Below are positions 10,104-51,889 of a stretch of DNA of 52,589 bases, piece after piece. Origin of the DNA: Minisyncoccota bacterium (lineage in GTDB: Bacteria; Patescibacteriota; Minisyncoccia; Phycocordibacterales; PALSA-1337); contig JAGOQK010000006.1 in assembly GCA_017991475.1 (NCBI GenBank), positions 1-52,589 on the forward strand, written 5' to 3'. The notes below the pieces were generated by a model. It saw nothing but the letters and a program-made list of their open reading frames with translations. It had not been told where the DNA came from and did no database searches. Within the stretch, counting starts at the first letter, position 1; each line of letters begins with the position of its first letter. The position numbers and the translations under genes were made by a program.

Positions 10104-11150
10104 TTAGTTCACCCATTCCACCTCCCCTTCTATATCTATGCCCGTCTTCTCCTTGACCGTATCGATGATCGTATGCGCGAGCTTTACCACCTCCTCCGAA
10201 GTGGCACCAGACTTTGCGACAAGTACGAGCGCCTGCTTCTCGTAGACACAGACATTACCAATACAGGCCCCCTTGAGATTGCAGATTCTGTCGAGTATCC
10301 ACCCGAGCGGAACCTTGACGACACCATCGCCTTCTGGATAGCCAGGGAGGTCAGGGTACACCTTTTTGAGACCTTGATAATGTTCGGTACAGATGATCGG
10401 ATTCTTGAAGAACGAGCCGGCAGTACCCCAGAGCTTCCAGTCGGGCAATTTATTCCAGCGGATATCGATAACTGCATCGCGCACTTCTTTGAGCGACGGA
10501 TTTGCTATGTCCTTCTGGGAAAAATATTCTTTCACATCCTTATACTCCAAATTCACGGCGCCGTCCTTCTTCAGAGAAAAATCAACGCGCGTGATGATAT
10601 ACCTTCCCTTCTCTTTCTTGAATATGCTGTCCCTATATGAAAAATGGCAATCAGCATTACTGAGTTCTACGAATGCGCTCGTCTTCAAATCGTATGCACG
10701 AACACTCTGGACGGTTCCGGCCACTTCGACTCCGTATGCGCCGATATTCTGGACCGGGGCCGCGCCAACCGTTCCGGGTATGGCAGACAAGTTTTCCAAT
10801 CCATAAAGCCCCCACTCGACCACATATTCCACTAGCGTATCCCACTGAACTCCAGCACCCGCAGAAACAATCGTACTCGAATCATTTTGGATTTTGGATT
10901 TTGGATTTTGGATTTTCTGTACCCCCTCTATCTCCATCTTAATGACGACCCCGTCGAACCCTTTGTCGCTCATGAGAACATTTGACCCTCCACCAAGAAC
11001 GAAAAGTGACGCCTTGCACTCATTTGCAAATGCAACCGCTTGTACCAAGTCTGCTTCGTTCCTGATAATGCAAAAAAAACGTGCCGGCCCGCCGATTTTG
11101 AAGGTTGTATGGGGGGCAAGCGATACCTGCTCATGTATAGTCAGTGTCAT
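10104..11150 (-). CDS. murB: UDP-N-acetylenolpyruvoylglucosamine reductase MurB
   Basis: A 348-residue FAD enzyme that reduces UDP-GlcNAc-enolpyruvate to UDP-MurNAc, the second committed step of peptidoglycan precursor synthesis in the cytoplasm. The FAD-binding part shows T-F-K-I-G-G-P-A (16-23), G-G-G-S-N-V-L (53-59) and S-A-I-P-G-T-V-G-A-A-P-V-Q-N-I-G-A-Y-G. Y-R-D-S-I-F-K, containing the catalytic serine, marks the type I form. Residues 79-90 (K-I-Q-N-P-K-S-K-I-Q-N-D) are encoded by a tandem heptanucleotide repeat and replace what is normally a short loop. It has a leader of about 100 nt with a hairpin and is probably transcribed with secA. Confidence 0.95.
   Translation of the reverse strand: MTLTIHEQVSLAPHTTFKIGGPARFFCIIRNEADLVQAVAFANECKASLFVLGGGSNVLMSDKGFDGVVIKMEIEGVQKIQNPKSKIQNDSSTIVSAGAGVQWDTLVEYVVEWGLYGLENLSAIPGTVGAAPVQNIGAYGVEVAGTVQSVRAYDLKTSAFVELSNADCHFSYRDSIFKKEKGRYIITRVDFSLKKDGAVNLEYKDVKEYFSQKDIANPSLKEVRDAVIDIRWNKLPDWKLWGTAGSFFKNPIICTEHYQGLKKVYPDLPGYPEGDGVVKVPLGWILDRICNLKGACIGNVCVYEKQALVLVAKSGATSEEVVKLAHTIIDTVKEKTGIDIEGEVEWVN
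10885..10918. repeat. Tandem heptanucleotide repeat (TTTTGGA) inside murB
   Basis: Four consecutive TTTTGGA units are followed by a truncated fifth. Since 7 and 3 are coprime, the coding strand reads a 7-residue cycle (N-P-K-S-K-I-Q) with no stop. This is the clearest of six such tracts in the window. Confidence 0.9.
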
Positions 11151-11257: not shown

Positions 11258-11286
11258 ATTATATCGTGTGATATTCCCCAAAACAA
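11258..11286 (-). promoter_or_regulatory. Candidate murB promoter with its -35 box inside a hairpin element
   Basis: On the minus strand: TTGTTT (11281-11286), a 17-base spacer and a perfect TATAAT (11258-11263). The predicted start near 11251 gives a leader of about 100 nt. The -35 hexamer lies in the outer part of the left arm of the long hairpin element at 11275-11396. Confidence 0.55.
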
Positions 11287-11396
11287 GCAGCGGCATATGT
11301 ATTTTCTCGTGGTCATGTTGTATTTGTACACTACAAACACGTAAACCGTTCTGCATGACCACGAGAAAATACATATGCCGCTGCTTGTTTTGGGGA
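11275..11396. repeat. Long hairpin element, copy 1 (43-bp perfect arms, 36-nt loop)
   Basis: Arms 11275-11317 and 11354-11396 are perfect inverted repeats of 43 bp. The 36-nt loop (11318-11353) begins TTGTATTTGTACACTAC and ends AACCGTTCTG. The loop is nearly the reverse complement of the loop of copy 2 at 13842-13967, so the two copies lie in opposite orientation on either side of the O-antigen-ligase-like gene. The arms share the core GCATATGTRTTTTC with copy 2 but otherwise differ, with pairing preserved. Confidence 0.92.
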
Positions 11397-11531: not shown

Positions 11532-13751
11532 CTATTTTGTTTGCATCTGCTTGATAGCCGCCTCTACCTGATCCTTGTACTCTGGGTAATCCTTGATAAT
11601 ACTGCGTAATGTCTGTTCGGCCGACCACGTCATTCCCGCCATCTGCTGCACCTGTGCGAGTTGTGCGCGGAGCTCGATACTCTTGGGGTCAGAGCTGAGG
11701 AGCTTCTCGAAAATTGCAGTGGCCTTCGAATACTGCTTCAGCGTCGCATAAGCCTGCGCCATACGCATAGTCTCGAAAACCTCTGGAGAACCCTTGAATA
11801 ATTCCTTGGCTTCGTTCTCTTTGCCACTCAAGACCAACATGACCGCATAAGTTGACCTCGCTTCTGAGTATGAAGGTTCGGCATCATATGCTTCCTTGAT
11901 TACCTTCAACGCATCCTCTGCTTTATTTACATTGAGATACGATGTTGCAAGCTGGAATAGCATCGACTGCTTTCCTGGGGTAAGCTCACGCGCTTTCTCG
12001 AGAAACTTTACCGCCTCGTCAAATTGCCCAAGCGCGTTGAAGAACGAACCACCAAGAATGTATATGCGCGCATCCGCAGGTGTTGCCACGATCTGATCGT
12101 TGATGGTCTTGACCGTGAGCTCATAGAACCCCTTCTTGGTTGGCTCTGGATAATTGCTGCCGATCACGCCAGCCGTACACGATATCAACTGTTCGCGAAT
12201 CTCTTGCTCTGCCATAGTCGATCCGAGAGAAAGCGCTTGTTCGAACAGCTTCGGATCTGCGGCTCCGACCGTACGATCCGCACATGCCGAAAGGGCGCTG
12301 ATGAGTCTGGTATTCGCCTGCATCGGGCGCACATTGATGAAATACACCGAGGCCAAGAGGCCGATAACAGCAATAGGCATCACGATGTACTCGATGGAAT
12401 CGGGACTGAAATATTTCTCACCAATCCACCGATCGATCTTCGATCGTCTCACATGGCTCGCATGCACGATTGAGCCACCAAAACCGAGTAGAGCGAAGAA
12501 TGAAATATAGCTGGCTATATTGTCGAATACAAATATATTGTGCACTGCATATCCAGCGACGAGACCGGTCAGGGCACTCTTCTCAGCGATGGTAAATGAT
12601 GATTTTTTCCAGATCGCGATAATAAGCAAGACATACAGTGCCAGATATGAGAACAGTCCAACAAATCCTGACGCCACCAACCAATCAAGAAAGACACTGT
12701 GTGCACGATCAAACCACTGTTCCTGTGAATGCATTTTCGGATTGTAGTTTGCATTGAAGATATAGTTGAAGTTCTCCTGTCCCCAACCGAAGATAGGACG
12801 TTCCAGGGCACCTCCTATCGCCATCGGCCATACATATCCGCGAGCCTGCGTTTTATTCTCATTCCAAGAAATACTTGCTATGCGATTGAGAACGGGACTC
12901 TGCTGAATAAAAGGTGCCGTACGATTCATCCAGAAAATGATCCCAAGAATGAAGATCGCACCCAGAATACTCGCTGAAATGATTCGTGAAGTTCGAGCCT
13001 TGGCTCCGCGCGCGAATACCACATAGAGTGCGAGAGCAAGCACGATACCTCCGATGAGGCCGAGGATGGTACCACGCGTCTGCGTCTGGAATACGAGAAA
13101 ACCAAATATGACCGCGAGAACTGGGTAGATATACTTCAACACATGGGCGCACTCGACCTGCTTGGCTCGAGCAGCAAAGAACATGTATGTCGCTATGCCC
13201 GTATGCATAAGCATGTAGACCGCGAAATACGCAGCGTTACCGAGCGAGGCGTCGAGTCGAGTGCTTCCCTGATGTATTGCGGCCCATCCCATGAGCTGAA
13301 AAACTCCATAGATTCCGGTATAAAGGGCAACCAAAAGAGAGAGGTTGAACCAACGATGCCAAAGCCTTCTACCAGTCTCATCCGGTCCGAATGAATACAC
13401 CGTAGCCATGAAGAATGCCCAGAGATGCACGACCACCATCCATCCCTCCATGCGTTCAAAATTGGACCAGATACTGCGGAGTGGATTGACACCCAGAAGA
13501 TCTGCGATGAGGGTGATCACCGCAAAGAGCGAAACACCTACTGTCAACGGCGTAAGCTTGGGGCGATACTTCGCATCCAAGAATGCGAGAACTGCCCATC
13601 CCACGAATGCAACCTCGACCAGTATACGGAAATAAAAAGCCTTACCCGTGATGAACGGAAAGAAAAATGGATTGGCGACGATAACCGCGAAAAACGGGAT
13701 GAGGAACAATGCACAGAGGACGATGGGTCGTATTATTTTCTGAAGGGTCAT
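11532..13751 (-). CDS. O-antigen ligase/polymerase-like membrane protein with C-terminal TPR repeats
   Basis: A 739-residue protein. The first ~450 residues hold many hydrophobic segments and the region around 245-375 resembles the Wzy_C/O-antigen ligase domain, including a large loop with N-F-N-Y-I-F-N and W-F-D-R-A-H-S. Residues about 560-735 form at least four TPR-like helical pairs, for example F-D-E-A-V-K-F-L-E-K-A and A-E-D-A-L-K-V-I-K-E-A. Bacterial proteins of this layout polymerise or ligate glycans, or O-glycosylate proteins, on the outer face of the membrane. It lies next to a polysaccharide export operon but on the other strand, flanked by two long hairpin elements in opposite orientation. 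Ligase versus polymerase cannot be decided from sequence. Confidence 0.82.
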   Translation of the reverse strand: MTLQKIIRPIVLCALFLIPFFAVIVANPFFFPFITGKAFYFRILVEVAFVGWAVLAFLDAKYRPKLTPLTVGVSLFAVITLIADLLGVNPLRSIWSNFERMEGWMVVVHLWAFFMATVYSFGPDETGRRLWHRWFNLSLLVALYTGIYGVFQLMGWAAIHQGSTRLDASLGNAAYFAVYMLMHTGIATYMFFAARAKQVECAHVLKYIYPVLAVIFGFLVFQTQTRGTILGLIGGIVLALALYVVFARGAKARTSRIISASILGAIFILGIIFWMNRTAPFIQQSPVLNRIASISWNENKTQARGYVWPMAIGGALERPIFGWGQENFNYIFNANYNPKMHSQEQWFDRAHSVFLDWLVASGFVGLFSYLALYVLLIIAIWKKSSFTIAEKSALTGLVAGYAVHNIFVFDNIASYISFFALLGFGGSIVHASHVRRSKIDRWIGEKYFSPDSIEYIVMPIAVIGLLASVYFINVRPMQANTRLISALSACADRTVGAADPKLFEQALSLGSTMAEQEIREQLISCTAGVIGSNYPEPTKKGFYELTVKTINDQIVATPADARIYILGGSFFNALGQFDEAVKFLEKARELTPGKQSMLFQLATSYLNVNKAEDALKVIKEAYDAEPSYSEARSTYAVMLVLSGKENEAKELFKGSPEVFETMRMAQAYATLKQYSKATAIFEKLLSSDPKSIELRAQLAQVQQMAGMTWSAEQTLRSIIKDYPEYKDQVEAAIKQMQTK

Positions 13752-13841: not shown

Positions 13842-13967
13842 CAGCAGCCCCACAAGGGCAGCATATGTGTTTTCGCTATGGCTTCGCAGAACGGTTCTCT
13901 AAAGTGTAGTGTACAAATACAACGAAGCCATAGCGAAAACACATATGCTGCCCTTGTGGGGCTGCTG
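13842..13967. repeat. Long hairpin element, copy 2 (45-bp perfect arms, 36-nt loop)
   Basis: Arms 13842-13886 and 13923-13967 are perfect inverted repeats of 45 bp. The 36-nt loop (13887-13922), read on the minus strand, shares its first 18 and last 10 bases with the copy-1 loop. It lies between the divergent O-antigen-ligase-like gene and the glycan operon and ends 18 bp before the -35 box of that operon. Confidence 0.92.
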
Positions 13968-13985
13968 AAACACACATGAACCAAC

Positions 13986-14013
13986 TTGACACTTATTGAC
14001 ACTTTGCTAGAAT
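13986..14013 (+). promoter_or_regulatory. Promoter of the glycan operon
   Basis: A perfect TTGACA (13986-13991), a 16-base spacer ending in TGC, and TAGAAT (14008-14013). A second TTGACA overlaps the spacer at 13996. Only seven bases separate the -10 box from the ATG at 14021, implying a leaderless mRNA for the first gene. Confidence 0.8.
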
Positions 14014-14020
14014 TGACTCC

Positions 14021-14269
14021 ATGACAAGCGAGATCAAATTCCATGGGGTATACACGACCGAGGAAACTCGGGATTTTTTGCGCGTGAGCGAAAGCACCAT
14101 CAAGCGCATGCTCAAGAAGGGACTTCTTCGCGCCAACAAGGTCGGCGGACAGTACCGCATTCTCGGCAAAGAAATCCTTCGCGTCCTCTCCCCGGATCTC
14201 GAGAAAGAGGCCGTCGACTCATACCTCAAGCTCAAGAATAAGGTCGTGAACAAGATAAATAGGTGGTAA
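14021..14269 (+). CDS. Excisionase-like HTH protein heading the glycan operon
   Basis: An 82-residue protein. Residues 10-57 match the HTH_17/excisionase type: Y-T-T-E-E-T-R-D-F-L-R-V-S-E-S-T-I-K-R-M-L-K-K-G followed by the wing V-G-G-Q-Y-R-I. The tail is a charged helix. It is the first gene downstream of the operon promoter, and its stop lies 5 bp before the ABC permease start, so it should be co-transcribed with the export genes. An autoregulator or a locus-level regulator is the simplest reading. Its fold is the same as that of the 2928 protein and of the N-terminus of the surface protein, but sequence identity looks low. Confidence 0.75.
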   Translation: MTSEIKFHGVYTTEETRDFLRVSESTIKRMLKKGLLRANKVGGQYRILGKEILRVLSPDLEKEAVDSYLKLKNKVVNKINRW

Positions 14270-36965: not shown

Positions 36966-37439
36966 ACTATTTGCAACATACAAGGATTTCTTGTGTGTTC
37001 AAGACGGTGACATATTTCAGTTATCCGGAATTTCCGGAATAGTTAAAATTGGACAAGAATTCAGTATGTAAGGAATTCTTACATACCCAAAGAATATTCG
37101 GCAACTGTTTCCAAAACGGAAACAGTTCAAGGTAAATTAATATTTCCAGTTATTCGGAAATTCCGAATAACTGAATAGGAACTTGTAAGGAATCCTTACA
37201 AGTTCAAAATACATCACACAAAATAATCCCTGCCTAGTTGTGGGTCTTTTTCTATTTGATACAATTCTCAAATCAGATCGTCAGTTATTCTCGACCAACA
37301 AGACATTACGACAGTTTCTACAATTCAATAATCCAGTGACGCAAAGTCGCTGTCTCTTTTTTGCAACTATTCGAGATTTCCGAATAGTACATAAGGATAG
37401 AGATTTTGATTGCTTAACAACTTAATTAAATATATACAT
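36966..37439. repeat. Non-coding hairpin array upstream of the RhuM-like gene
   Basis: Eight hairpins in 414 bp. H1 36975-36999 (10 bp plus one G-T), H2 37018-37044 (imperfect), H3 37064-37086 (9 bp), H4 37103-37127 (10 bp), H5 37147-37173 (11 bp), H6 37179-37205 (11 bp), H7 37334-37352 (7 bp, one G-T), H8 37366-37388 (8 bp). Loops are 5 nt in H1-H7 and 7 nt in H8. H2 and H5 share the arm CAGTTAT(T/C)CGG; H3 and H6 share TGTAAG-GAAT. Between H6 and H7 (37206-37333) no structure or ORF is convincing. The sequence is AT-rich and unlike its surroundings. Confidence 0.85.
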
Positions 37440-43397: not shown

Positions 43398-45617
43398 CTA
43401 ATCAATCTTCAGCACATTCTTCAACACATCTTCTGGTACCTCGTTAGGTACAGATTTTTGCTCAACAGAAATAGAATCAGATTTCACGGCGACTCCAACA
43501 GCAGCCCCCGAACCGCCTTCAGTATCAGCATCCGCTGGGACCTTGGTCGCTGTGAATACAATCTTCGGGAGGGGCTTCAGTTTCTCAGTCGATTTGAGTG
43601 GTTTCTGAGCTGCTGATTTCGTAGGTGCAGGCACAGGCGATGCGGCTTGTTGAACTATCTTATCGGCTGAAGCAGGAGTTACTCCTCCCTTCTTCGCCAT
43701 CGCTGCAGCGAGAGCGCTCTTGAGACTATTCACATTCTCCTTGGTCTGCATCTTTGGGTCCTGACGAAGTGTTTGCGGCTTGGGCGCGAGCACGGACAGA
43801 GAAACGGGTTTAGGGACAGAAGCTTCAGTGGCTGGTTTCGGCACAACCGGCACGGCGATGGATTGCGTGACCGATTTCAAAACTGGCTTGGACGCTGTCT
43901 CAACTGGTACCACCTTCACTGGTTCGACTGGTTTCGGCTTGGTCATCGCGGTTGCGAGGGCATCCTTGAGGTTTGAATGTCCCTCAAGTTCTGGCTTCGG
44001 CATCGCAGCAGGTTTCGGAGCAATCGGTTTCGGCATATTTGGCTTCACCGCAGCAACGACAGGTTTTGCCGCAGTAATCGATGTGGCAGTCGGCGCAGAA
44101 ATATTCGGCACAACAACTACCGGAAGTTTCGAGGTAACAGCAGCAACAGGAGCAGAAGGTTGAACGACTGGTGCCACAGCTTTAGGCACAGGCGGAATAA
44201 CGGGAGCAGAGGCCTCAACAGGTTTCACCTTTGGCATAGCCGCAAGCGACGCTGAACCAATTTTTGGAGACGGTTTCTCGCGATCGCCGAGTGCTTCGAT
44301 CTTCTTCATGGCAGGTGTCGAGTCGTGGAACTTCGAAATCTCCACTTCAACCTCCGCTTTAGGTTTCGAGAACTGTTCACGCGATGCTGCAATAATCTCC
44401 TCGACATATGACTTATCGGGATGTGGAATCGGGGGCAAGGTCGTTGCTGAGAATGGTGCCGAGCTCAATCCATCAATCATGAGCTTGAGATAGATCTGCG
44501 CAAATCCGAGGTTGACCAGGTCTTCAAGCACGAATACCGGCGCGAACTCTTTCTCGAACACTTCACCATCGGTTGCACCGACACGGAATGCAATCATCGT
44601 ACCCACGTTGCCGAAAACTGCAGGTCGCACGATCTCATCCATCTGTTCGATATACTGGTGCGCGATCGTAAGGTTGAGTTTGTATTTTCGTGCTTCGGAG
44701 AGGATATCCGCGAACGACGCATTGGCGAAGTTCTGGAACTCGTCCACGAAAAGATAAAAGTTTGGAAGCATCTTCATGACACGATCAGGAACATCTGCGC
44801 GTGACATCGCAGCGAGATATATCTTGGTCACCAGAAGACCGCCGAGAAGCTTCATATTCTCATCACCAATCCTTCCCTTCGATAGGTTGATGATGATGAT
44901 CTTGCGCTCATCCATCGCCTTACGAAAATCGAATGAAGACTTGGCCTGACCGATCATATTTCTGATAAGTGGGTTTGCAGTGAATTGACCGACCTTGTTT
45001 TGGATAGCGGGCACAGCCTCTGCCGCCATGCGCTCGGTATAGTTAGCGAACTCCTTGACCCAGAATGACTTCACCGACGGATCAGTGACATGCGAAATTA
45101 TTTCATTCCTGTACGCCTTATCAGAGAGCATGCGGTTAACCCCGAGCAACGTCGTATCCGGAGCCTCAAGTAGTGCAAGAAGTGTGTTGGTGAGGATGTA
45201 CTCCATACGCGCAGACCATGCGTCCTCCCAGATTTTCTTGAAGGTACTCATGAGGCCGCCGACAACGAGGTGTCTCTTGTCAGCACTGACACTTTCGAGC
45301 ACGTTAAATGAAATCGGATTGTCCAGATCGAACGGAGCTATGACGATCACATCGCGAATACGTTCCTTGGGAACATACTCAAGCATGAGGTCCGCGGTCT
45401 TGCCGTGAGGATCGATGAAGCACATACCTTCGCCACCCTGAATATCCTGGACAGCCATGTTCTCGAGGAGAGTAGATTTTCCCATACCCGTCTTACCGAT
45501 GACATAGACATGGCGCGTACGATCCTTGGCCTTGATGCCAAATTTGAGGCGTCTATTGCGAGCGTCAGTCTCGCCAAAATAGGTTATGCGATTCTCATCG
45601 GTGGATACAGGAGCCAT
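43398..45617 (-). CDS. VirD4/TraD-like ATPase with long low-complexity tail
   Basis: A 739-residue protein. Residues about 1-400 are a VirD4/TraG-type P-loop ATPase: Walker A I-G-K-T-G-M-G-K-S-T (34-43), C-F-I-D-P-H-G-K, and Walker B F-Y-L-F-V-D-E-F-Q-N-F. Residues about 440-739 are Pro/Ala/Lys/Val-rich and contain two copies of an L-K-x-A-L-A-x-A-M helix, probably disordered with short binding motifs. No N-terminal membrane helices are evident. Such proteins in CPR genomes are often near type IV pilus or secretion genes, none of which is here. The start at 45617 is chosen because a TATAAT sits just upstream and the extra residues from 45644 are hydrophobic. Confidence 0.85.
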   Translation of the reverse strand: MAPVSTDENRITYFGETDARNRRLKFGIKAKDRTRHVYVIGKTGMGKSTLLENMAVQDIQGGEGMCFIDPHGKTADLMLEYVPKERIRDVIVIAPFDLDNPISFNVLESVSADKRHLVVGGLMSTFKKIWEDAWSARMEYILTNTLLALLEAPDTTLLGVNRMLSDKAYRNEIISHVTDPSVKSFWVKEFANYTERMAAEAVPAIQNKVGQFTANPLIRNMIGQAKSSFDFRKAMDERKIIIINLSKGRIGDENMKLLGGLLVTKIYLAAMSRADVPDRVMKMLPNFYLFVDEFQNFANASFADILSEARKYKLNLTIAHQYIEQMDEIVRPAVFGNVGTMIAFRVGATDGEVFEKEFAPVFVLEDLVNLGFAQIYLKLMIDGLSSAPFSATTLPPIPHPDKSYVEEIIAASREQFSKPKAEVEVEISKFHDSTPAMKKIEALGDREKPSPKIGSASLAAMPKVKPVEASAPVIPPVPKAVAPVVQPSAPVAAVTSKLPVVVVPNISAPTATSITAAKPVVAAVKPNMPKPIAPKPAAMPKPELEGHSNLKDALATAMTKPKPVEPVKVVPVETASKPVLKSVTQSIAVPVVPKPATEASVPKPVSLSVLAPKPQTLRQDPKMQTKENVNSLKSALAAAMAKKGGVTPASADKIVQQAASPVPAPTKSAAQKPLKSTEKLKPLPKIVFTATKVPADADTEGGSGAAVGVAVKSDSISVEQKSVPNEVPEDVLKNVLKID

Positions 45618-45627
45618 ATATGTAAGT

Positions 45628-45636
45628 ATTATACCA
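45628..45636 (-). promoter_or_regulatory. Extended -10 promoter of the VirD4-like gene
   Basis: The minus strand reads TGG then a perfect TATAAT. Ten bases separate it from the ATG at 45617, giving a leader of about 3-4 nt. Confidence 0.55.
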
Positions 45637-45646
45637 TATAACAAAT

Positions 45647-45733: not shown

Positions 45734-46018
45734 TCAGGCCGTGGCGGGAACTGCTGCGATGCCCTTGAGGCCGCGCAATGCAGCGTAGAGTAAATCCGGA
45801 ACTTTCGTCATGTCGACGGCGGAAAGTTCGATCCTCTTGTTGCCACCTCCTACCAACGGAATCCAAACACGCAGATTGTTACCTGACACAACACCATCGT
45901 CGATGATTTTCTCGATGAATGCCGCGCCCGGAACTTCCGCTTGTTCAGATTCAACTGGTGCTGCCTGCATCACTACGGGCCGCTTCTTACTTGAAGCGCC
46001 TGCTGCTTTTCGTGCCAT
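45734..46018 (-). CDS. Small basic-to-acidic orphan protein
   Basis: A 94-residue protein of unknown function. The first 18 residues are basic (R-K, S-S-K-K-R), followed by an acidic linker and a compact domain with V-W-I-P-L-V-G-G-G-N-K-R-I-E-L and D-M-T-K-V-P-D-L-L-Y-A-A-L. There is no membrane segment. It has a good promoter (46127-46154) and a leader of about 100 nt. An in-frame TTG at 46093 would add 25 residues; ATG 46018 is preferred because a purine-rich GAAAGAAAG lies just upstream. Confidence 0.6.
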   Translation of the reverse strand: MARKAAGASSKKRPVVMQAAPVESEQAEVPGAAFIEKIIDDGVVSGNNLRVWIPLVGGGNKRIELSAVDMTKVPDLLYAALRGLKGIAAVPATA

Positions 46019-46126
46019 AACTTTCTTTCGTTCTTTCGTTGTGCTAACTATTTTGTGTCCACACTGACCAAGCCATCCCTGGCCTTTAATCAATCAATGC
46101 GAACGAGAATACGTATCCGGATATAA

Positions 46127-46166: not shown

Positions 46167-46289
46167 TAAGTACCCGCAGGGGCAGCATGCATGTTTCTGG
46201 CATGTCATGTTTAGGATTGAGCACTAAACTTAAAAAACTAATAAAGCATGACATGCCAGAAACATGCATGCTGCCCCTGCGGGTACTTA
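46167..46289. repeat. Long hairpin element, copy 3 (43-bp perfect arms, 37-nt loop)
   Basis: Arms 46167-46209 and 46247-46289 are perfect inverted repeats of 43 bp; the loop is 46210-46246. The arms contain GGGCAGCAT as in copy 2. The loop shares about 12 of 16 positions with the core of the other loops (T-T-G-n-n-C-A-C-T-A-n-A-C-T-T). The last three bases of the right arm are the stop codon of the DUF4015-type gene, so the element sits exactly at its 3' end. Confidence 0.88.
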
Positions 46290-47561
46290 CTTCGGCAGAA
46301 GAGCCTTCATGTCATACACACTTGCCGCATTCCAGAGCATCCAACTGTCGAGACCAACATCATAAGTAGCGTCGATTTGTTTGCGCACCATTTCGGGTGT
46401 ATAGACAGCACCGAGGTCAAAAGCTTGAAGCCAGGGACGGAGCTTATTCTGGTCGTATGATTTCTTTGTATAACGCTGCGGAGTCGTTGAAGCGATAGGC
46501 TCTTCTCCGAGCCATGAGATACGCGTGGTGGTCGCCGTAGCCTTGGCAATACCACTCTCCAGTGCCGCAGTGATGACCTCGTACGGATACTGCGCGGGCT
46601 TCGCATATCCGTTGTATCCCTTGCCATAGTGTGACGGATAGATCATCGGTGCAACATAATCAAAATACTCAAGGCCATATTCAAGAATCTGCCCAATGCC
46701 AAGATCTCCCTCAGCGGCCGTCGTCAGACCGAAAAGGTCCACCGAGGTCGGGATACCCGTACCCTCGAATTTACTGTGCACATACTGGAAGAAATCTTTC
46801 ATGACTTCGTGACGAGGCCTTCCCTCTGCCCAGGTATATGAAATGTCCTCAAGGTCGCCATCCGAGGGAAATCTGATGTAGTCAAAATTCAACTCATCGA
46901 ATCCAGCTTCATATGATTCATTGCCGATGGCGACGATATAGTCCCAGACCGGCTTGGCTGCAGCATCGAGCCACTTCACACCCTTGTAGTCCTGCCAGAT
47001 ACGACCATCCTTGGTCTTCACTGCCCATTCAGGATGAACATCGATCAAATACGAATCCTGAAAAACAGAGATGCGCGCGATGACATATACATTTTTCTCG
47101 TGCAATCGTTCGATAAGCTCGATCATATCGGGCACTCTCTTCTCTATCGCACCCTTCTCGACGATTAGTGGATCATCCATCTCAAAACTGATACGGCCGG
47201 TGTAGTCTTTGACATCGATGACCACAGAATTGATCTCGGTGGTTTCGATAAGTTCGAAAAGATGCTTCCTGAATTTCTCGCTTCCTGCAGCCCAGCTCGT
47301 CATATAGACCGCCTTGACCTGATCAGGTGTTGATACATGAGTTGCCTTCCAGACGGGCGTTGATGAGGCGACTTCTTCTAGGGCAGGAATTGCTGCGGCG
47401 GCAAGAGGAACATCTTCCTGTGACTGGAGTAGTGCAGAATATTCGATACGCCCGAGTGGAAGGAACCAAGCAAGCGCAACAAATACTCCTACAATGACAA
47501 AAGCCACGACAATGATCGTCGCGGAACGAGTAGATCCATGCTCACGCCAGAAACCAATCAT
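46287..47561 (-). CDS. DUF4015-type putative glycoside hydrolase, membrane-anchored
   Basis: A 424-residue protein. Residues 15-35 are a single N-terminal membrane helix with the bulk outside. From about 80 on it follows a TIM-barrel glycoside-hydrolase pattern known as DUF4015: V-K-A-V-Y-M-T-S-W, N-S-V-V-I-D-V-K-D-Y-T-G, Y-V-I-A-R-I-S-V-F-Q-D, W-L-D-A-A-A-K-P-V-W-D-Y and F-D-E-L-N-F-D-Y-I-R-F-P-S-D-G. Acidic residues in these strands are likely catalytic. A role in trimming surface glycans or peptidoglycan is inferred. It overlaps the upstream small membrane gene by 4 bp and its stop codon lies in hairpin element copy 3. Confidence 0.85.
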   Translation of the reverse strand: MIGFWREHGSTRSATIIVVAFVIVGVFVALAWFLPLGRIEYSALLQSQEDVPLAAAAIPALEEVASSTPVWKATHVSTPDQVKAVYMTSWAAGSEKFRKHLFELIETTEINSVVIDVKDYTGRISFEMDDPLIVEKGAIEKRVPDMIELIERLHEKNVYVIARISVFQDSYLIDVHPEWAVKTKDGRIWQDYKGVKWLDAAAKPVWDYIVAIGNESYEAGFDELNFDYIRFPSDGDLEDISYTWAEGRPRHEVMKDFFQYVHSKFEGTGIPTSVDLFGLTTAAEGDLGIGQILEYGLEYFDYVAPMIYPSHYGKGYNGYAKPAQYPYEVITAALESGIAKATATTTRISWLGEEPIASTTPQRYTKKSYDQNKLRPWLQAFDLGAVYTPEMVRKQIDATYDVGLDSWMLWNAASVYDMKALLPK

Positions 47562-51740: not shown

Positions 51741-51743
51741 TCT

Positions 51744-51881
51744 AAAGTGCAGTGGTACAGGATACATATCTCGAGGTACATTCGCAGGTGATTTTGAGCA
51801 CAAAATCACCGAGGACTAGGAAACTTTCTGCAGAAAGTTTCCGTGTACCGAGGGATATCGTATCCTGTACCACTGCGCTTT
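51744..51881. repeat. Three-way-junction inverted-repeat structure upstream of mraY
   Basis: Outer arms 51744-51780 and 51844-51881 pair over about 35 positions; the first 22 are perfect apart from one G-U. Inside are two perfect hairpins: 51787-51810 (9-bp stem, GAGCAC loop) and 51819-51842 (10-bp stem, TGCA loop). The result is a clover-like three-way junction 138 nt long. It lies between the NlpC/P60-like gene and the mraY promoter. It lacks a T tract, so it is not a standard terminator. Confidence 0.85.
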
Positions 51882-51889
51882 GCGAATGA

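Follow-up and report, generated by a model that had tools for sequence, protein, structure and literature searches.

A perfect 43-bp hairpin behind a DUF4015 gene belongs to a dispersed family whose arms change in step

Why should a bacterial gene end in a hairpin with long, perfect arms, and is such a structure a terminator, a structured RNA, a mobile element or something else? The question is raised by positions 46167-46289 (plus strand) of a stretch of 52,589 nucleotides (the window) from a Minisyncoccota genome, here G000, a 771-kb assembly of 17 contigs and 95% completeness. Both 43-nt arms (46167-46209 and 46247-46289) pair without a mismatch around a 37-nt loop of type B (46210-46246, TTTAGGATTGAGCACTAAACTTAAAAAACTAATAAAG), exactly as the first-pass annotation had described. 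The adjoining gene (46287-47561, minus strand) encodes a putative glycosyl hydrolase of the DUF4015 type (PF13200, E 3e-93), whose relatives are nearly all found in Patescibacteria/Paceibacteria; its TAA stop codon (46289-46287, minus strand) forms the last three base pairs at the outer end of the right arm. Downstream of the hairpin lie a small ORF of no assigned function (45734-46093, minus strand) and a TraG/VirD4-like gene (43398-45644, minus strand), the orthologue of which also follows the hairpin in the sister species G022 and G016.

The hairpin and its family

The hairpin is exceptional for its surroundings. Folded as RNA it reaches -88.9 kcal/mol, compared with -31.2 +/- 3.5 kcal/mol for shuffled sequences (z -16.6). 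Among 20 dinucleotide shuffles of the window, one produced an inverted repeat with a 20-50 nt loop, its arms 12 nt long, and the other 19 produced none; in 422 kb from further neighbourhoods of DUF4015 genes, only one such repeat reached 28 bp or more. Our results uphold the earlier view that perfect arms of this length need selection or active renewal. At the Rfam gathering score the window gave no match, and five G022 loci gave only a tRNA.

Two further copies in the window share the arm core, as had been proposed. One (11275-11396, plus strand, 43-bp arms, 36-nt loop) sits beyond an intrinsic-terminator-like site (11430-11416) of the gene at 11532-13751 (minus strand) and before a murB-like gene (10104-11150, minus strand). 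The other (13842-13967, minus strand, 45-bp arms, 36-nt loop) is flanked by the divergent genes 11532-13751 (minus) and 14021-14269 (plus), upstream of a promoter-like site (13986-14013) graded good. Their type-A loops have almost the same sequence and face opposite ways. The related loop core that had been reported for all three stands only in part: the 46167 loop is weakly related to these two (scores 0.5-4; shuffled -4.7 +/- 2.7, maximum 3.5), and it more closely resembles the one at G000:C15:11406 (score 13). We also note a 34-nt inverted repeat at 37016-37175 (79%, 92 nt between arms), apparently unrelated to the family.

In G000, a covariance model built from the three window copies recovered 13 clear hairpins, and there is a fourteenth with a long loop of 102 nt. 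G022 (KTt_bin-0975), from the same genus as G000, has 28 copies; G016 has four copies and one more with a 63-nt loop, and G015 and G042 have one each. The G016 count may be an underestimate, since three of its contigs (C32, C18 and C28) end near hairpin places. In the 34 genomes of the genus that were searched there was no match beyond these five. Of 383 genomes of the class that were scanned, only G000 showed the family, a result that bounds it loosely because only ten candidates were scored per genome under strict filters and few genus-mates were included. The five carriers belong to one group of seven in a SecA tree (support 0.62), and five of those seven, leaving out G041 and G042, group with support 0.84; the tree fits inheritance from a common ancestor, within its limited support. 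The dispersed copies found genome-wide bear out the proposal that the hairpin is a member of a sequence family and not an unrelated terminator, and show that family to be larger than first noticed.

In the fourteenth G000 copy (G000:C15:47747-47923), family-like 34-bp arms without mismatch enclose the 102-nt loop, which itself appears able to fold; this suggests that loop modules can be swapped. Other long hairpins were also seen. G022 holds a separate hairpin family of two copies (L131:266-372 and L143:3941-4045) with perfect arms of 37 bp (CGATGCAAATACGCAAATGTATGCGAATGACGCGAAT or a very similar sequence) and loops of 31-33 nt. In the Parcubacteria genome GW2011_GWA1_40_21, a lone hairpin (L023:2870-2973, 29-bp arms, 46-nt loop) of sequence unrelated to the family lies just upstream of a DUF4015 gene.

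Hairpin places shared between species

The 3′ end of the DUF4015 gene carries a hairpin in G000, G022 and G016. In the two sister species it occupies the same place with arms of 42 and 41 bp, each around a 38-nt loop; the unrelated hairpins of different size that would have spoken for an ordinary terminator did not occur there. The G022 locus (L037) is the only one with a related DUF4015 gene to carry such hairpins, one of them directly after that gene. G000, G022 and G016 also have a hairpin ahead of rpsB or the MFS gene next to it (the rpsB promoter region); G000 and G022 share one at the pbp/greA boundary, and G022 and G042 share one at serS/dprA. At the DUF4015 and rpsB places the letters of the hairpin have been largely replaced between species. 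Proteins encoded beside the common places share 44-78% identity when G000 is compared with G022, and the intergenic DNA is accordingly largely saturated.

The precise overlap with the stop codon, to which the first-pass annotation attached meaning, is local chance: in both sister species the stop codon of the gene is found 5-6 nt beyond the hairpin, and the overlap in G000 is thus incidental. The suggestion that every transcript of the gene would carry the hairpin likewise does not generalise to a role for the family. Neighbours were called by simple ORF picks for 33 copies (12 more overlap small or doubtful ORFs), giving 19 tandem, eight divergent and five convergent contexts and one cut by a contig end. 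A transcript role is therefore not general, since eight copies lie between divergent genes and both the serS/dprA copy and 13842-13967 separate divergently transcribed genes identified by Pfam.

Several G022 copies have no hairpin at the corresponding G016 place. The three apparently empty G016 sites that we inspected most closely resemble deletion relics or retain a hairpin, and the remnants at L113 and L137 look like one arm of a lost hairpin. These sites consequently gave no clean polarity of insertion. A nested insertion of a hairpin into the loop of an older terminator is plausible at L113 and L137, but is inseparable from flank copying because in G016 these sites resemble what a deletion of the hairpin itself would leave behind. 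Separately, a glutaredoxin-like ORF and the family hairpin behind it (G022, L146:2489-2880) are both missing at the syntenic G016 place, as if gained or lost as one piece.

One gene boundary bears two stem designs. At the place of a g-type family hairpin in G022 (L144:2076-2194), the window carries a long-stem element of another kind, a three-way junction at 51742-51883 (plus strand). This element has a second copy in G000 (L013 1756-1902, G000:C14). Both have a near-perfect outer stem of 22-29 bp, two inner hairpins of about 10 bp and conserved unpaired segments (ACATTCGCAGG, CGAGGACTAG and GAGGGAT); the fold has a z of -13.2, and no Rfam family scored above the gathering score.

Arms that change in step and loops that are constrained

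Family arms are mostly 37-46 bp with 0-3 mismatches, and loops mostly 36-39 nt. Across the 23-25 G022 copies compared, conservation is confined to the 6 bp next to the loop (AAGTTT) and to a motif in the middle of the arm (ACTCATTTT), with 6 variable bp between the two. The outer arms are near random, with 37% pairwise identity against 29% for flanks, and shared ends of the MITE kind were not found in them. Within a copy the two arms nonetheless match. In 29 copies, all 27 of the stem pairs tested show double changes, with 282 double-change cells against five one-sided ones; 98.1% of cells are paired, G-U accounts for about 1% (around 8 of 771), and the covariation score is 0.95 against 0.26 when shuffled. 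The 31 mismatches over some 45 hairpins (14 G-T and 9 A-C on the loop strand) show no strong strand-specific wobble preference.

Template switching is known to homogenise the arms of inverted repeats and to invert their spacers (PMC8604942, PMC8794818), and the joint arm change without one-sided intermediates that marks such repeats is what we observe here. Compensatory evolution of an RNA stem, a process that PMC8794818 treats together with template switching, would be expected to leave G-U intermediates, although a compensatory RNA history with short-lived intermediates may also lie behind the in-step arms. Inverted similarity reaches beyond the arms (score at least 11) in 30% of hairpins as against 2.5% of mismatched pairs, and at L137 and L113 it extends into the coding end of the neighbouring gene, which fits arm-to-arm copying. 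Inversion of the loop is well supported for one G022 pair, L148/L140 (one flank 49, the other 11). Apparent inversions between G022 and G016 at the DUF4015 and typA-like sites rest on a weak alignment of unlike loops that determines orientation poorly; we have downgraded them accordingly.

The loops behave differently from the arms. Loop types go with the genome: G000 carries A and B, G022 carries G and g, and G016 carries H with a single G. In 23 G022 copies, 25 of 38 loop positions are invariant where 7.9 are expected, and one position shows all four bases. Invariant positions so far above expectation beside a saturated one are a mark of constraint and not just of recent copying. As copying alone cannot account for them, they suggest selection by a recognising factor, that is, that something may read the loop.

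Competing explanations and known systems

The explanation that we consider probable, on balance, is an ancestral dispersed palindrome at the borders of transcription units, its arms renewed by arm-to-arm copying and its loops replaced in concert. The hairpin at 46167-46289 would then be one copy of a lineage-restricted family of DNA palindromes of about 120 bp, placed intergenically and mostly between transcription units. Its arms would stay identical because replication or repair uses one arm as the template for the other, either through intra-strand template switching or through cleavage and repair of an extruded hairpin. Loop modules would be replaced by ectopic copying between hairpins with a common mid-arm motif; conceivably the tip of an extruded hairpin is cleaved and the break is then repaired on the template of a second copy with that motif. 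The position at unit borders may be a tolerated niche or reflect a boundary role. Copying at the DNA level is favoured over an ordinary terminator because boundaries keep a hairpin while the letters of both arms change in step.

A possible but doubtful reading is that the host uses the family as a structural DNA element, a long perfect palindrome at unit borders in which the stem is needed only as a stem and the (extruded) loop is recognised by a co-evolving lineage-specific factor, so that different stem designs can occupy one boundary.

Unlikely, in our judgement, is transposition of a non-autonomous element (MITE- or REPIN-like) whose copies survive by chance between transcription units. 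Copies are indeed dispersed, intergenic, in both orientations and restricted to a lineage, with near-identical loops within a genome. Yet no pair of copies has the common arms that recent transposition would give, old orthologous sites carry new loops, and saturated loop positions stand beside invariant ones. Transposition, which had been suggested as a means of renewal, finds no support in direct flank similarity, which is no higher than in control pairs (5.9 against 6.2; target duplications of 2-3 bp would escape detection), or in the G016 sites described above. The Y1 transposase (PF01797) that mobilises REP elements was undetected in the 95% complete G000 assembly, and we set aside a Y1-dependent REP system there; G022 and G016 have distant Y1 matches. 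A viral origin was also rejected: the G022 loop motif is absent from IMG/VR, where a 16-base stretch from the type-A loop matched 81 times, in no case within such a hairpin.

We regard as improbable a functional structured RNA or mRNA 3′-end element, its stem selected for pairing and its loop for sequence. The very stable fold, the maintained pairing, the constrained loop and the many copies 5-40 nt past a stop codon are all consistent with it. Against it stand the scarcity of G-U pairs and of one-sided changes, the eight copies between divergent genes, the absence of a T-run after the stem and a loop orientation without clear link to gene direction (13 opposite and six the same in tandem contexts).

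The hairpins are not intrinsic terminators, a reading that their frequent position just past stop codons might invite but that is very improbable given a mean of three T in the 10 nt after the stem (25 gene-end sides; TCAACGCTGA follows the 46167-46289 copy), separate short terminator-like sites nearby (11430-11416 and 45672-45647), copies in divergent regions, and a 43-bp stem and 37-nt loop outside the terminator form.

Complete stem covariation is normally taken as proof of a functional RNA. If the palindrome explanation is true, the family is a natural case in which such covariation arises largely from DNA-level arm-to-arm copying, in small genomes with little spare DNA, and it cautions against naming such hairpins structured RNAs on covariation alone. 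The many replicate hairpins across related genomes would provide a test bed for template switching in stems and ectopic conversion in loops.

REP palindromes have short arms and depend on Y1 (RAYT) transposases. Copies of REP/BIME/REPIN elements (PMC3116915, PMC2817692) are likewise dispersed, intergenic, palindromic and lineage-specific. The present family differs in its 37-46 bp arms, its conserved loops and variable arms, and in the lack of a detectable Y1 gene in G000. Copies of a MITE have common ends. Small MITEs with long inverted ends (Correia/NEMIS, ERIC; PMC2229807) resemble the family in their length of about 100-150 bp, inverted ends and intergenic position; here, in contrast, arms differ between copies and match within a copy. 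The repetitive hairpin-forming and double-hairpin elements of mitochondria are also dispersed hairpins, scattered taxonomically, with conserved stems and varying loops (PMC2800124). The present family is the reverse, with conserved loops and varying stems. Integron attC sites combine a variable sequence with a conserved palindromic fold and often follow a stop codon. They share these traits with our hairpins, in which inspection by eye (without a formal motif count) revealed neither the extrahelical bases nor the RYYYAAC/GTTRRRY ends of attC; moreover, the family has perfect arms, and its copies are scattered and not in an array. Closest in process are inverted repeats homogenised by template switching (PMC8604942, PMC8794818), which have arm homogenisation in common with the family and spacer inversion as an expected by-product. 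Those studies describe a mutational process at individual repeats, whereas here a family is held at the same gene boundaries, and the combination of a conserved place, a conserved loop and a replaced perfect stem is unusual.
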